A stretch of DNA of 64,000 bases. Source: Methanosphaerula palustris E1-9c. Lineage in GTDB: Archaea; Halobacteriota; Methanomicrobia; Methanomicrobiales; Methanospirillaceae. The position numbers and the translations under genes are program-made. Shown one piece after another: positions 57,143 to 64,000 of the stretch (position 1 is its first letter; every line of letters starts with the position of its first letter). The notes below the pieces were generated by a model. It was not told the origin of the DNA. It worked only from the letters and a program-made list of their open reading frames with translations, and ran no database searches. The stretch lies in assembly GCF_000021965.1 (NCBI RefSeq), contig NC_011832.1, positions 2,211,242 to 2,275,241 of the forward strand, in the 5' to 3' direction.

Positions 57143-60100
57143 TCAGGAGAACTGGAGATAGTCGAGAGTCATGGTTCCCAGAGGCTTCAGCGTCAGGGTA
57201 TGAGTCCCTGCCGGGATCGCCACTGGCTTCTGTGTCTGGGTCAGGGCACAGGTCTGTGTACCCGGTACCTCAAGGGTGCAGAGGTCCGCACCATCGAGTT
57301 GAACCAGGACCCTGGTCTTCTCCTGGGAGGATGCCTGCAGAGCCACGGTGTAGTTCCCAGCAACAGGAGCATTGACCGCATAGGCGAGCCAGGTGTCCTT
57401 CGTCAGATTGTTGACCAGGTAGCCTTTCTCAACCGTTGAGTAGTGGACTGGAACGAGATCGTTCCGGTACTGCCCGCCGGTGCTGTTCAAGGTGTTCATA
57501 TGATACCCAATTCCCTCTCCGCCATCCTTAAAGTTCTCGGCCTCTATCCGCCCTGGGAGGGTGTAGCCGGCCGGTTGCGGCACATAGGTGGGGGCACCTG
57601 CAGGCGCAGGTGCATCAGTCACTGTCGCAACAGGAGTAACTGTCTGGATGACCGTGGTGTTCACCGCTACTGTTGTTGGCACGGCCGTGGTTTGCACTGT
57701 CGTGATGGCAGCCGCCGTGGTGGCAGCCGTCTGGACGGTGGTAACATTCTGGACCGGAGCAGACTGAGTGATCACCGGTAGCGGCGTGCTCACCGAGATC
57801 TGAGTCTGCGTCTCCACCGGCGCAGAGGTGGTCGGCATTGCAACGGTCTGGACCATGGTGACTGACGGTGTTGTCAGGTTCGCCTGAGTTGTGGTCTCAA
57901 CCTGAGCTGGCTGCCCCGTTGTCACCATCGGTACCGCTTCAGCGACCGTCGGCAGTGAGGTCGGCTCTACAACCGTCTGATTCGCTGTTACCTCCAGGAG
58001 GGCAGCACCCTGGGTCAACCCATGGGTCTTGAACTGGATCCAGTTCAGATTCTGGTATCCACCTGCCATCAGTTTCAGCACATGCGGCCCCGCAGCGAGG
58101 GACACCTGCTTAGTGACCGTCGTATAGGTGTCGTATGACCCAGTGTTGGGAACCACCACCTGACAGACTGAAGAACCATCCACCTGGAGGTTCATCGTCG
58201 TACCCGACTGCGGGCTTGAAACCCTGAACAGTACATCGTAGAGGGTCGTGCTCTGCACATTCACTGTATATTTGAGCCATTCGCCGGCCCGGATATAACT
58301 GACCACCGGGCTGTTTTCACCATTGCTGTACTCGATATCGACATCGTCGTTGCGGTACTGCCCACCGGTGTTTCCCGGGGTGGTATCGTAGTACCCGACG
58401 CCTTCGCCGCCATTGTTGTAGTCTTCGGCCTCGATCACACCCGGGATGACTCCATTACCATATGACTTGGGAATCGGCACTGGCAGCAGAGTGCTGGTGG
58501 AGATCGGAGTCGTGGTCTGCGTCGCAGTCGTGGTCGTAGTCGCCGCTCCACCCGAGGGCTGGAACCTCATGAATTCCAGGTTATCGTAACCATTGAAGTT
58601 TATCCGGATCTGGTGGAGTCCGGCCGGCAGTGAGATCTGCTGGACCACAGTCGTATACGTGTCAAACGATCCAGTGTTCGGCACATTCACCATACAGGCG
58701 TCCATGCCATCCACCTGAACCACAAACGAGGTCCCACTCTTCGGTGTGGATACCCTGAAGGAGACATCAAAGACGCCGGCTGCAGCCACGTTTGCAGTAT
58801 ACCGGATCCATTCGCCAGGTCTGACATACGAGAGCACATTGGTTCCCTCTGCAGCGGAGTATTCGATATCCACATCGTCACTCCGGTACTGTCCACCCTG
58901 ATTGCCAGGAGTGGTGTCGTGATAGGCCACACCCTCGCCACCATCGTCATAGTTCTCCGCCAGGATAGTACCCGGGATGTTCGTCCCACCATGCGTCGAC
59001 GGTGGAGAGGTCGCTGTTGTCGCAACTGTTGTCGTTGCGACGGTGGTGACTGTTGTAGTCGGCAGTGGAGTATCGGTGTGTGTGGTGAAGACCATCGTTG
59101 CTAGGTTATGATACCCAGTGGTGGTCACCTTCATCTGATGCGTACCGGCGAGCACATAGACCGGCATCTTCACAGTCGTATAGGTGTCAAAGGAACCAGT
59201 GTTCGGCACAACCACCGTGGTGATTGGGATATCATCCATCGTGACGGTGAACGAGTTCCCATCGGTCGCACTGGAGACCTTGAATGTCGCATCATAGACA
59301 CCTGCAGTTCCAACGGTCACGGTATAAGCAAGCCATTCGCCAGGTCTCATATATCCAACCACTGGTCCGTCTGTACCGGTACTGTATTCAAGATCTACAT
59401 CATCGGACCTGTAGGCTCCACCCTGGTTTCCAGAGGTGGTGTCATGATACCCAACACCTTCACCGCCAGTATTATAGTCAGCGGCCAGGATAGTACCCGG
59501 AATCACTGATGTCCCAAAGGCTACCGGTGTCGGTATCTGAGTCACGGTCTGACCAGGCAGTGGGATCGTAACAATCGTCGTTGTCGTCGGGTTCGATGTT
59601 GGATCTGGTGTGATCGTGGTCGTCGGATCTGTAGCGATATAGCCGTTGATCGAGATCTGGTTGTTTGCGCAGTTGTGATAGGTGATCACCTTTGCTGGAT
59701 CGACACCGCTCACATAGATCTCAAAGGTACAGTCTGTAACCGGCCATGGATCGTTTGGATGATCCTCACGGAGACCTAAGGAGATACTCCCTGTCGACTG
59801 CTTCGGATTGATCAACTTGAAGTTCTTCACCACAACGCCATCTGAACCCCAAGCATAGATCCCATATGTGCGTGCATTCTTGCTGACACAATTATTCAAC
59901 TGGATGTTTGTACCAGTACGGAACTGGAACGCGTAGTTCGAACCGTCATCTGAGCAGTTGTTCAGAATTACATCCTGCGCACTCTGCCAGACCCAGAACC
60001 CGTTGTTCCGGTTATTAATGGCGACGCAGTTGTTGAGAGTGACCCCGCAGCTCAGGTAATACCCTGAAAGATAGAACCGCGTTGGATCGGTATTTCGCCA

Positions 60101-60931
60101 GCCATTATTGACACTGACACAGTTGGTCAAGACACTGTTCTTCTGAACCGGCAGATCCATATTCGGGTCGTCGCCACTGACAAAGTTCGGCTCAAAATAG
60201 AACCCTGACTCCCAGTTGTCCTCTGCCCTGCAGTTGGTGACCTGCAGGTCATAGAGATCGGCCCCTTCGTGGAAGTCAAAGCCGACCGCCCAGATCTTGC
60301 CGGAACCAGAGTTTCCACACCGGAGTGCGAGGCAATTGACGAACCGGATATTCTTCGTCGTCCGGGGTGAGTTCATTCCGTTCACATTGAATCCAGTCGA
60401 GCCGACATCGATCGCCTGGCAGTCGACGAACTCGATATCCTCACAGACCCTGCCATTGGCCCAGACAAAGAACATCCCATTGACTGTCGGTGCGGTCTTC
60501 TTGGAGTTCTGGATCACCACATTATGGACCTTGATATGACTGGCCTGGATCATCAACCATCCGCGGGTAGTGATCTGGAGATCCTGGACCGTGGTATAGT
60601 CATGTGCAATATCAATACGAGCGTCGTAATCTCCGCTCATGCTGATAATTGTCTTGTTGGGACCCTGCCCCTTCAGCACCGAGTTGCCCGTCGTTAGGAT
60701 CGTTCCATCTGTGTGAAATGTCCCTTCAGTCAACTGTACCGTCCCTCCTGAAGCAAGTGCAGCATTGATCTGCGACTGGTCACCAGAACCATCACAGACA
60801 TACTGAGCCGACGCCTTCGACGACGCACTACTATCTGATGCCGCAACGATCGTTGTTGCGGCTGCTGCCTGTATCAGACAGAATAAGGAGAGGATAATGA
60901 GGAAGATTCGTTTTTTGGATCGTATATTCAT
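57143..60931 (-). CDS. Large secreted right-handed beta-helix protein with four CBM6-like modules
   Basis: A 1262-residue exported protein. A signal peptide (1-26) is followed by a right-handed parallel beta-helix (about 45-435; QSQINAALASGGTVQLTEGTF and repeated NCVSVNN/NCVAINN coils), typical of polysaccharide lyases or adhesins. Four homologous CBM6/CBM35-like modules follow at about 477-617, 652-791, 829-968 and 1124-1262, each opening with IPGxIxAExYxxGGEGVGYxD and containing the D-V-D/RPGEW aromatic site. Linkers are Thr/Pro/Val-rich, the longest about 975-1110. No membrane anchor or sortase tail is present. It probably binds or degrades cell-surface or environmental glycan. Codons in the linkers are repetitive. 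Confidence 0.88.
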   Translation of the reverse strand: MNIRSKKRIFLIILSLFCLIQAAAATTIVAASDSSASSKASAQYVCDGSGDQSQINAALASGGTVQLTEGTFHTDGTILTTGNSVLKGQGPNKTIISMSGDYDARIDIAHDYTTVQDLQITTRGWLMIQASHIKVHNVVIQNSKKTAPTVNGMFFVWANGRVCEDIEFVDCQAIDVGSTGFNVNGMNSPRTTKNIRFVNCLALRCGNSGSGKIWAVGFDFHEGADLYDLQVTNCRAEDNWESGFYFEPNFVSGDDPNMDLPVQKNSVLTNCVSVNNGWRNTDPTRFYLSGYYLSCGVTLNNCVAINNRNNGFWVWQSAQDVILNNCSDDGSNYAFQFRTGTNIQLNNCVSKNARTYGIYAWGSDGVVVKNFKLINPKQSTGSISLGLREDHPNDPWPVTDCTFEIYVSGVDPAKVITYHNCANNQISINGYIATDPTTTITPDPTSNPTTTTIVTIPLPGQTVTQIPTPVAFGTSVIPGTILAADYNTGGEGVGYHDTTSGNQGGAYRSDDVDLEYSTGTDGPVVGYMRPGEWLAYTVTVGTAGVYDATFKVSSATDGNSFTVTMDDIPITTVVVPNTGSFDTYTTVKMPVYVLAGTHQMKVTTTGYHNLATMVFTTHTDTPLPTTTVTTVATTTVATTATSPPSTHGGTNIPGTILAENYDDGGEGVAYHDTTPGNQGGQYRSDDVDIEYSAAEGTNVLSYVRPGEWIRYTANVAAAGVFDVSFRVSTPKSGTSFVVQVDGMDACMVNVPNTGSFDTYTTVVQQISLPAGLHQIRINFNGYDNLEFMRFQPSGGAATTTTTATQTTTPISTSTLLPVPIPKSYGNGVIPGVIEAEDYNNGGEGVGYYDTTPGNTGGQYRNDDVDIEYSNGENSPVVSYIRAGEWLKYTVNVQSTTLYDVLFRVSSPQSGTTMNLQVDGSSVCQVVVPNTGSYDTYTTVTKQVSLAAGPHVLKLMAGGYQNLNWIQFKTHGLTQGAALLEVTANQTVVEPTSLPTVAEAVPMVTTGQPAQVETTTQANLTTPSVTMVQTVAMPTTSAPVETQTQISVSTPLPVITQSAPVQNVTTVQTAATTAAAITTVQTTAVPTTVAVNTTVIQTVTPVATVTDAPAPAGAPTYVPQPAGYTLPGRIEAENFKDGGEGIGYHMNTLNSTGGQYRNDLVPVHYSTVEKGYLVNNLTKDTWLAYAVNAPVAGNYTVALQASSQEKTRVLVQLDGADLCTLEVPGTQTCALTQTQKPVAIPAGTHTLTLKPLGTMTLDYLQFS

Positions 60932-61384: not shown

Positions 61385-62341
61385 ATGATAACCTATACAC
61401 CAGAACAGGTGAGAGAGCGTTTTGGACCGCTCTTCTCAAAGAAGTTCCTTGTGATGGTCGACGAACTGGCCGGCATGGCTGAGATCTTGGAGCAGTGTCG
61501 GTCCAGAGGTACCATCGAGTGGGATGCGATGAACAGATCCAGAGCCGGGGGTGCCGTCATCACCTGTGCCGTCGAAGGAGCGGCGATGACAATCCATGCC
61601 AGGATAGGCATCTATCCAGTGAACTTCGGTTCTGCTGGAGACGCCATCGGCGGGCAGGCCCTGGAGGGTGTGGAAGTGAACGATAATGAGGTCGTCACGA
61701 TCTGGCGAGGGATCGCCGGCGCCGGCGTCGGGATCGCTGCCTGCCTCCCCCAGGCCCCGGGCGTGATTCGAGCGGAATACCCGGAAGAGGAGGACCTCCA
61801 TGTCGGCGGGGCCCGGATCAACCATGTCCGGATCGTCTCCCCCCGGTACGAGAAGATCACAATCGGGATCGACGACACCGACACTAAAACTGAAGGTGCC
61901 ACCTGGGTGATGGCCCTTCAGTGTGCCGAGGCCTGTTCCATCCCAGGGGTCGAATTCCTGAACATGCGGCTGATTCAGTTGAACCCGGACGTCCCGAACA
62001 AGACCACCAACTGCGTCGGTTCCGCCCTGAACTTTGCGGTCCTCCCCGGGAAGGTAGAGGCCCTCCTCGAGTTTGTCAGGGAGTATGTGCTGGCCCACAC
62101 GCACAGTGATGAGGCTGGGATCGCCTGCTACTCAGGCATAATTTTGCCTGATCATGACGATCTTGCAGCCCGCGTGAAGACCGAGATCCTGACGGTCGAT
62201 CAGGCGACAGCCGGGGCAGAGGTATGTGGGATCCGATTCCTCATACCCGCCCCAACAAAGGGACGCATCGGGGCCCTCGGCGCAGTTCTCTGGGCAAACA
62301 AAGGCGTGGAGGCGGCAGGGCTCTATGGCGAACATCTCTGA
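61385..62341 (+). CDS. Mmp11-related protein with DDTDT motif (paralogue)
   Basis: A 318-residue protein of unknown function that resembles methanogenesis marker protein 11, encoded next to it, over the central part. Both contain the GIDDTDT motif (D163-T167 here) followed by EGATW, a nucleotide/metal-binding signature also seen in the tRNA-Ile agmatinyl transferase TiaS, and the segment KTTNCVGSAL. The N-terminal 55 residues differ from Mmp11. A TATA-like box is upstream. Its stop overlaps the mmp11 start by 17 bases. It may use ATP to modify a cofactor or RNA, but this is inference. Confidence 0.8.
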   Translation: MITYTPEQVRERFGPLFSKKFLVMVDELAGMAEILEQCRSRGTIEWDAMNRSRAGGAVITCAVEGAAMTIHARIGIYPVNFGSAGDAIGGQALEGVEVNDNEVVTIWRGIAGAGVGIAACLPQAPGVIRAEYPEEEDLHVGGARINHVRIVSPRYEKITIGIDDTDTKTEGATWVMALQCAEACSIPGVEFLNMRLIQLNPDVPNKTTNCVGSALNFAVLPGKVEALLEFVREYVLAHTHSDEAGIACYSGIILPDHDDLAARVKTEILTVDQATAGAEVCGIRFLIPAPTKGRIGALGAVLWANKGVEAAGLYGEHL

Positions 62342-63218
62342 CCCGTACACGACGACCTACGCGAAGATCGCGGCGGTCACCGATCCGACCACCAATCAGG
62401 TCGAATTGATCGAGTTCTTCGACTGCATCGGTGGGGCAATGTGGTGTGGCCACCATTATACCCAGAGCCCGCTCGTCACCTCGACCAGGGTCGTCGGGTC
62501 CACGATGCGATACCTCCTCAAAGAGGGAAAGGTCACGCTCGACCTGGTGGGATCGCGGTTCCCGGCAGGGATCTCAGAGGTCGCGGTCGCCGGCGAGGAG
62601 GTCGGGATCACCTATATCGGCATGGGTGGTGGCGGTGTCGGCGCGGCCTGTGCACGATCGAACGCAGCAGGCGTGATCAGGAGCAGGAGCGACCCGGCCG
62701 GCGGAGGAAAGGTCGCGAGTGCGACGATCTGGGTGCCGGCCCGACAGCGGGTACTGATCGGTGTCGATGACACCGATACCCCTGAGGCCGGGGCCACCTG
62801 GACCCTCGCCCATAACATCGCAAAGGAGGTCGAAGACAGAGAGTCCATATACCTCTCCCATACGATCGTCCAGCTCTTTCCGGTCCCGTTCCGGACCAAG
62901 AACTGCGTCGGGCTGGTCTGTGAGTTCGCGACCACCGACCCTGCAGGGCTGACCAGCCGGTTCAAAGCACTGGTCGAAGAGTACACTCTCTCCGACGAGA
63001 CCGGGATGGCCGTCTTCACCGGATTCGATCCCGCCCCACTCAGGCCGTTTGGTGAACAGGTGAAACGCGGCCAGGTCAGTTGGGACGATCTGCAACAGAT
63101 CAAGGATGAACGGTTGAAGATCGTCCTGAACGGACGGGGGGCGATCGGTGCGGTGGCGGCGATCCCATTCTCAACGAGATATGAGGAGGCGCTCGAACTA
63201 TGGAATGGACACGGCTGA
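62325..63218 (+). CDS. mmp11: Methanogenesis marker protein 11
   Basis: A 297-residue protein matching Mmp11, a family found essentially only in methanogens. It opens with SDPYTTTYAKIAAVTD and has FFDCIGGAMWCGHHY, GMGGGGVGAACARSNAAGV, and the IGVDDTDT motif at 146-152 with AGATW. Function is unknown; the DDTDT/GATW signature is shared with TiaS-type nucleotide-binding enzymes. I start at the ATG at 62325, inside the paralogue's last codons; a longer open frame from 62226 is not supported. Its last 19 bases overlap the radical SAM gene. Confidence 0.9.
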   Translation: MANISDPYTTTYAKIAAVTDPTTNQVELIEFFDCIGGAMWCGHHYTQSPLVTSTRVVGSTMRYLLKEGKVTLDLVGSRFPAGISEVAVAGEEVGITYIGMGGGGVGAACARSNAAGVIRSRSDPAGGGKVASATIWVPARQRVLIGVDDTDTPEAGATWTLAHNIAKEVEDRESIYLSHTIVQLFPVPFRTKNCVGLVCEFATTDPAGLTSRFKALVEEYTLSDETGMAVFTGFDPAPLRPFGEQVKRGQVSWDDLQQIKDERLKIVLNGRGAIGAVAAIPFSTRYEEALELWNGHG

Positions 63219-64000
63219 AGGCAGAACTCCTCACGGCCGGAGGTGTCAGGGTGGAAGGTGAGCCAATCGACCGGTTCACCTCCTCATCGGCAGCCGGCCC
63301 GGGCGCAGGAGGAAGCGGTTCAGTCTTCTTCTCAGACGGAACCCACCGGGTCAGGCTCGGTCTGAACCAGAAGAGCACGATCACCCTCATTCACCAGGGG
63401 AATGGCGAGGCACGCCTCCATAGGGGAGATGAGATTATCACAGGCAGGATCGAGGAGATCGGACTCCACTGCCCCAGACAGGCTTACATCACCGTGACCG
63501 GTTCCTGCAGTTTTCAGTGCAGGTACTGTCCGGTACCCTCCCTCAAGGGGAGACGAAAGACCGCTGGCGAGGTGGTCGCGATGATCGAAGTGGTCGCTGA
63601 CCGAATCGATGCGATCTCGATCACCAGCGGAGTTCTCTCCACCTGCGAAGAGGAGGAGGATTACATCTGTACAGCAATCCTCCCCCAACTTCAGCGGTTC
63701 AACCTTCCGATAGGCGTCTCGATCTACCCGACCGAGAGAACTCCCGGCCGGCTGCACGCCCTCGGGATCGCAGAAGTGAAGTTCAACATCGAAACCGCTA
63801 CCGACGAACTCTTCTCAGAGAACTGCCCCGGGCTTGAACGGAGTGCAATTAAAAAGGCACTGACCGACTCGGTTCCTCTATTTGGCAGGGGACATGTCTT
63901 CTCCAACCTGATCGTCGGGCTCGGGGAGAGCGACGAGGAGATCTATACCTGTATCGACGAGTTGACCAGAGCCGGTGTGGTTCCGTGCCTTCGCCCACTG
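63200..64000 (+). CDS. Radical SAM enzyme (3' end outside window)
   Basis: The open frame begins with ATG at 63200, overlapping mmp11 by 19 bases, and runs for 267 codons to the last base of the window. After an N-terminal domain of about 90 residues (EGEPIDRFTSSSAAGPG ... GRIEEIGLHCP) comes a radical SAM core: C103-xxx-C107-xx-C110 (TGSCSFQCRYCPVP), then ITSGVL and a SAM-binding region with FNIETATDELFSENCPG and LIVGLGESDEEIYT. It does not resemble the McrA-modifying Mmp10 sequence as I recall it. Its presence in the Mmp11 operon suggests a linked, unknown modification. The C-terminal domain is not visible. Confidence 0.88.
   Translation, partial: MEWTRLKAELLTAGGVRVEGEPIDRFTSSSAAGPGAGGSGSVFFSDGTHRVRLGLNQKSTITLIHQGNGEARLHRGDEIITGRIEEIGLHCPRQAYITVTGSCSFQCRYCPVPSLKGRRKTAGEVVAMIEVVADRIDAISITSGVLSTCEEEEDYICTAILPQLQRFNLPIGVSIYPTERTPGRLHALGIAEVKFNIETATDELFSENCPGLERSAIKKALTDSVPLFGRGHVFSNLIVGLGESDEEIYTCIDELTRAGVVPCLRPL

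Follow-up and report, generated by a model that had tools for sequence, protein, structure and literature searches.

A probable coenzyme B operon of Methanomicrobia unites aks genes with Mmp11, a marker protein carrying a TiaS-type kinase domain

Homologues of AksA, AksD, AksE and AksF are encoded, together with five uncharacterised genes, in a single predicted operon that very probably serves as a coenzyme B operon. Coenzyme B (CoB), or 7-mercaptoheptanoylthreonine phosphate, donates electrons to methyl-coenzyme M reductase, which makes it indispensable to all methane-producing archaea; a C7 aldehyde is the precursor of its thiol, and Methanomicrobium mobile is a CoB auxotroph. The published pathway has 2-oxosuberate and its semialdehyde as intermediates and leaves some steps unassigned (PMC3087415), and it was still called unknown in 2025 (PMC12068725). 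The operon joins the five uncharacterised proteins with the known aks genes, suggests a candidate step for each of them, and so supplies candidates for the missing CoB reactions. If the assignments proposed below are correct, a methanogenesis marker protein would gain a function, and the TiaS kinase fold would be extended from RNA to small molecules.

Organization of the operon

The window analyzed is the whole 64,000-nucleotide stretch G000:C1:2211242-2275241. At its end, three open reading frames follow one another on the plus strand: gene A (61385-62341; 318 aa), an Mmp11 paralogue with an N-terminal Mmp11 domain and a TiaS-like TCKD kinase domain; gene B (62325-63218; 297 aa), encoding Mmp11; and rSAM, which starts at 63200 and runs beyond 64000, with 267 of its 323 aa inside the window. 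The third product matches PF04055 and carries the CxxxCxxC motif, and is thus a radical SAM protein, as had been proposed from the sequence alone. The overlaps noted in that sequence-only reading, 17 bases between A and B and 19 between B and rSAM, are indeed present on the plus strand, and the window edge had hidden the remainder of the operon. The edge falls inside rSAM, whose stop lies outside, at the equivalent of 64171 (full gene L002:2442-3413, where L002 is the host-genome locus and window positions equal L002 positions plus 60758).

Six further genes lie past the window on the same strand as rSAM, encoding an IorA-like TPP enzyme (L002:3410-4579), AksA (L002:4554-5687), AksD (L002:5687-6907), AksE (L002:6907-7377), a DUF7714/XcbA-like protein (L002:7374-8177) and AksF (L002:8174-9139). 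The resulting nine-gene order, A-B-rSAM-TPP-AksA-AksD-AksE-DUF7714-AksF, shows an overlap at every junction. The earlier suggestion of a methanogen cofactor pathway was therefore of the right kind, as the downstream aks genes point to coenzyme B as the cofactor concerned. The four Aks homologues occur together and AksA is of the short type, as expected of a coenzyme B operon; the clade of the operon AksA has a support of 100/99, and the single Aks members score below the strictest equivalog cut-offs. Just past the operon lies a gene for the archaeosine radical SAM protein RaSEA (L002:10007-10999; TIGR01210, 310.8 bits), apparently unrelated, and a 1262-aa predicted secreted protein with internal repeats is encoded divergently from the operon, on the minus strand, at window positions 57143-60931.

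Conservation within Methanomicrobia

Of the 61 Methanomicrobia genomes sampled, 60 contain Mmp11 above cut-off, and rSAM likewise occurs in 60. When coordinates were compared by eye, B directly adjoined rSAM in 59 of the 60 genomes carrying them, the exception being G025, where approximately 3 kb separates the two, so that their association is not a matter of chance. Moreover, the order B-rSAM-TPP-AksA-AksD-AksE-DUF7714-AksF was conserved in 20 loci from 20 genera, with one exception (L049) in which DUF7714 and A have been relocated yet still flank the locus. Paralogue A was intact in 41 of the 61 genomes, and it heads the operon in only part of the loci; in G037 it is split by stops (L211:3537-4492), apparently as a pseudogene, with B, rSAM and all aks genes intact. 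DUF7714 was detected in 157 of the 159 genomes of the class, being missing only from G060 and G186. In G060 (94% completeness), Mmp11 above cut-off, rSAM and DUF7714 are all absent, as if a contig were missing, and neither genome was therefore taken as evidence. In one locus, rSAM and the TPP enzyme are fused into a single ORF of 719 aa (L052:7589-9748).

A naturally reduced form of the locus was found in four Methanocorpusculum-like genomes (L203, L204, L205 and L207), in which the locus consists only of A-B-rSAM-DUF7714, having lost a block made up of TPP, AksA, AksD, AksE and AksF; their sister genomes (L206, L208, L210, L211 and L212) keep all. This joint loss suggests that the TPP enzyme and the Aks proteins make the C7 precursor together, in which case the four retained genes (A, B, rSAM and DUF7714) may act after that precursor or independently of it. 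A published comparison of environmental and host-associated Methanocorpusculum reported homocitrate synthase, homoisocitrate and homoaconitase genes as enriched in the environmental group (PMC10035134).

Mmp11 neighbours in other lineages

We then focused on the surroundings of Mmp11 in other archaea, where its partners among the aks genes differ from lineage to lineage. In Methanocella paludicola (name inferred), B-rSAM is followed, after a gap of approximately 2.6 kb, by TPP, AksA on the opposite strand, and AksD-AksE-AksF-DUF7714; in Methanocella arvoryzae (name inferred) the arrangement is B, TPP, AksA and AksD-AksE-AksF-DUF7714, and locus L164 reads TPP-AksA-AksD-AksE-AksF-DUF7714. Mmp11 and AksA overlap by 4 bases in Methanofastidiosia, where a TPP enzyme of the acetolactate-synthase type comes next; AksE overlaps Mmp11 in ANME-2; and in Methanobacteriaceae the aks genes lie upstream, as AksD-AksE-AksF-...-Mmp11. 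Methanosarcina and Methanothrix carry AksE-DUF7714-AksF apart from Mmp11. Altogether, linkage between Mmp11 and aks genes recurs independently in at least five lineages, and the fact that the aks partners differ between lineages is strong evidence for a part of Mmp11 in methanogen CoB metabolism.

The expectation that rSAM would stand beside Mmp11 throughout the methanogens held in part. The two genes adjoin in Methanomicrobiales, Methanocella paludicola, Archaeoglobi, Methylarchaceae and others, but in Methanosarcinales Mmp11 is followed by the TPP enzyme, with rSAM elsewhere in the genome, and in Methanocaldococcus, which has Mmp11, a search covering 79% of the genome found neither an rSAM nor a TPP ortholog. 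DUF7714 was not found in Methanocaldococcus either. Hence rSAM, the TPP enzyme and DUF7714 are not universal partners of Mmp11. Conversely, 17 genomes contain rSAM without Mmp11 above cut-off. An Mmp11-rSAM pair also occurs in a metagenome-assembled genome labelled Actinomycetota (fen_680; L097:5593-7631), which transfer or a binning error could explain.

Another recurrent neighbour is Mmp4/MtxX, a protein related to phosphate acyltransferases, whose gene lies beside or near Mmp11 or A in L068, L071, L075, L076, L077 and L086. Across 119 Halobacteriota genomes, co-occurrence of Mmp11 and Mmp4 amounted to 58/59 versus 3/60, a comparison whose P value ignores kinship. Kinase and acyltransferase genes lying side by side point tentatively to acyl-phosphate chemistry.

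Mmp11 and its paralogue carry a TiaS-type kinase domain

Gene B was assigned to Mmp11 by profile search (TIGR03280, 331.5 bits; cut-off 255.8), while A, with 182.4 bits, is a distinct paralogue below that cut-off. Literature searches retrieved no paper on the function of Mmp11. Both proteins match TiaS_TCKD (Pfam PF22641) above cut-off (50.5 bits for A), and sequence profiles built from each of them find TiaS. Together with the alignments, this bears out the proposal that A and B are paralogues sharing a TiaS-related DDTDT...GATW signature. On the plus strand, the signature of A (IGIDDTDTKTEGATWV region) occupies 61862-61909, with D163, T165, T173 and W174 invariant in the A family, and that of B 62755-62802. 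In an alignment of 26 diverse Mmp11 sequences, D148, T150, D151 and G156-W159 are invariant, including the GATW threonine T158, and D149 is nearly so. This threonine aligns without gaps with Thr18 of TiaS, the catalytic residue that is autophosphorylated in that enzyme; in the ungapped comparison with 4rvz, query t161 stands opposite T18, and the K/R-T-x-N and GRGxIGA motifs are kept.

Structure prediction pointed in the same direction. The AlphaFold model of B is confident (pLDDT 91.2, pTM 0.90), and in a Foldseek search of the PDB its top eight matches, the sole ones with E <0.001, were all TiaS, led by 3amt_A (E 6.7e-9, prob 1.00). The DDTDT half is the part that superposes on the TiaS kinase domain, so the proposed kinship withstood the comparison that could have overturned it.

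Kinase fold and motifs in common with TiaS raise the question of whether Mmp11 is itself an RNA-modifying enzyme, an alternative the sequence-only reading had entertained. The resemblance is nevertheless confined to the TCKD: against the TiaS equivalog NF040849 (cut-off 600), scores reached 36.9 and 21.2 bits over profile positions 2-152 of 422. Moreover, separate TiaS-like proteins of approximately 420-440 aa are encoded in many of the genomes carrying Mmp11, and the operon partners are metabolic enzymes. Given this domain architecture and these neighbours, we set RNA modification aside as very improbable.

A third Mmp11-like paralogue of the host (L169:9005-10123; G000:C1 near 2119253) is fused behind a winged-helix DNA-binding domain and scores 102 bits against TIGR03280. 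Comparable matches of 90-130 bits are present in most Methanomicrobia. This protein is possibly a regulator that senses a substrate of the pathway.

Archaeoglobi and possible alternative roles of Mmp11

The idea that Mmp11 is restricted to methanogens was not borne out, as Ferroglobus (G079) and the Geoglobus-like genome G154 carry it; together with G104, which represents a third lineage of Archaeoglobi, they contain Mmp11, rSAM and Mmp4. In these three genomes AksA was not found, LeuA and CimA being the only relatives present, as in Archaeoglobi lacking Mmp11, and DUF7714 was not found. The simple rule that Mmp11 means coenzyme B was rejected on these grounds. A genome can thus keep the Mmp11-rSAM-Mmp4 module while lacking the Aks route, and in Archaeoglobi this module may serve coenzyme M, a thiol step shared by the two coenzymes, or an imported C7 precursor.

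These genomes bear on two further explanations. One is that Mmp11 takes part in maturation of MCR or F430, or in another methanogen function, and that its place in the operon reflects shared regulation only. Mmp11 owes its status as a methanogenesis marker to its distribution, and another such marker, Mmp10, modifies MCR, which provides a precedent. The retention of Mmp11 by Archaeoglobi without AksA makes this less likely, Geoglobus ahangari having been reported to lack MCR (PMC4600277), and in the loci examined Mmp11 repeatedly adjoins aks and TPP genes; we consider this explanation improbable.

The other explanation traces Mmp11, rSAM and Mmp4 back to an older module that served coenzyme M, or a thiol step common to coenzymes M and B, and that methanogens later recruited into the CoB operon. 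Besides the retention of the trio by these non-methanogenic Archaeoglobi, it draws on ComDE, which is present in Ferroglobus and Geoglobus and passes its cut-off in none of the Mmp11-negative archaeoglobus genomes, and on Geoglobus, where the B-rSAM pair adjoins the coenzyme M genes for cysteate synthase and ComDE. In addition, Methanomicrobia show a tendency for paralogue A and ComDE to occur together (12/2 versus 3/6, p 0.023), and at L170:7609-10178 a gene for a COG1900/Mmp16-like protein with CBS domains lies directly upstream of a member of the operon rSAM family. However, the Mmp11-positive genomes G104 and G124 have no ComDE above cut-off, 8 of 23 Methanomicrobia retain Mmp11-rSAM although ComDE is missing, and the main coenzyme M synthase of M. 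acetivorans is Mmp16 (PMC12068725). The recurrent aks linkage described above also argues against it, and we regard an original coenzyme M or shared thiol module as unlikely, albeit less so than a role in MCR or F430 maturation.

A candidate pathway to coenzyme B

Returning to coenzyme B, we favour a model in which the operon supplies the pathway through the steps below, and regard it, taken as a whole, as reasonably likely. AksA, AksD, AksE and AksF, the enzymes of CoB chain elongation, build 2-oxosuberate, from which the TPP enzyme would form the C7 semialdehyde by decarboxylation. Members of the TPP family share an invariant Glu and a TPP-type motif and, in the alignment, end ahead of the ferredoxin region of IorA; the absence of this region and of IorB is as expected of a plain decarboxylase, and the enzyme is probably a 2-oxosuberate decarboxylase.

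The DUF7714/XcbA-like protein, the LipA/BioB-like rSAM, or both, could act in or around the step that turns the aldehyde into the thiol. The DUF7714 assignment (PF24830) is clear, with 279 bits against a gathering score of 25; the protein has six invariant cysteines in the alignment, and its model (pLDDT 91.1) gave no fold match in the PDB, so that the model suggests no mechanism. The rSAM family, for its part, has a second invariant cysteine motif, CxxCxxC, at the C-terminus. A place near thiol formation is a tentative proposal for rSAM and an equally tentative one for DUF7714. COG1900 proteins (Mmp16/L-ASST), suspected of forming the CoB thiol in Methanosarcina (PMC12068725), compete with both for this step.

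For the last steps, the TiaS-type kinase domain of Mmp11 and paralogue A would spend ATP. In TiaS, the carbonyl of the cytidine is phosphorylated and can then be displaced by an amine; by analogy, the carboxylate would be activated for coupling to threonine, and the other ATP-dependent step of the pair would be the phosphorylation of threonine. In genomes with a single Mmp11, one of the two ATP steps would fall to another enzyme, with Mmp4 as a candidate partner. That the Mmp11 pair are the ATP-dependent coupling and phosphorylating enzymes is plausible, though we put it forward with reserve. The wider proposal, that TiaS-type TCKD kinases act outside RNA modification and complete the CoB pathway with the TPP enzyme, DUF7714 and rSAM in Methanomicrobia, is slightly more tentative still.

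Comparison with known systems

The TPP enzyme resembles IorA in its TPP-enzyme domains and CxxCP, but it is without the C-terminal ferredoxin part, and no IorB partner is encoded in the operon. In agreement, it scores 139 bits where the IOR alpha cut-off is 650.9, and the Methanosarcina form also stays below, with 314.6 bits over IOR_alpha 6-534 (profile 595). The radical SAM protein belongs to a LipA/BioB/HydE-like group: it has the CxxxCxxC core in common with lipoyl synthase, biotin synthase and LipS2, and its nearest solved relatives are the structures of LipA and BioB. It differs from LipS2 lipoyl synthase (NF053743), scoring 54.3 bits against a cut-off of 270, and its members in Archaeoglobi and Methylarchaceae are nearest to TIGR04043 (MSMEG_0568). 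Extra Methanocella copies of rSAM are located near genes named ThiI-like by eye from their sequence (L160:7183-10268 and L161:9553-11790). The DUF7714 protein matches the model of XcbA, of bacterial coenzyme M synthesis, over nearly its full length, yet with 42.2 to 78.5 bits it remains under the NF052538 cut-off of 150.

Mmp11 shares with TiaS (3AMT, 4RVZ) the TCKD kinase fold, the DDTD motif, the Thr18 position, K/R-T-x-N and GRGxIGA. Unlike TiaS, this protein of approximately 300 aa has its TCKD at the C-terminus, behind a separate N-terminal domain, and the remaining regions of TiaS are absent. Compared with the AksADEF chain-elongation pathway, all four enzymes are present, with a short AksA free of the regulatory domain, and the operon goes beyond that pathway by its five uncharacterised genes: two of Mmp11 type, rSAM, the TPP enzyme and DUF7714. 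Finally, with B as a full member of TIGR03280 and A below its cut-off, the Mmp11 family is here tied to what is very probably a coenzyme B operon.
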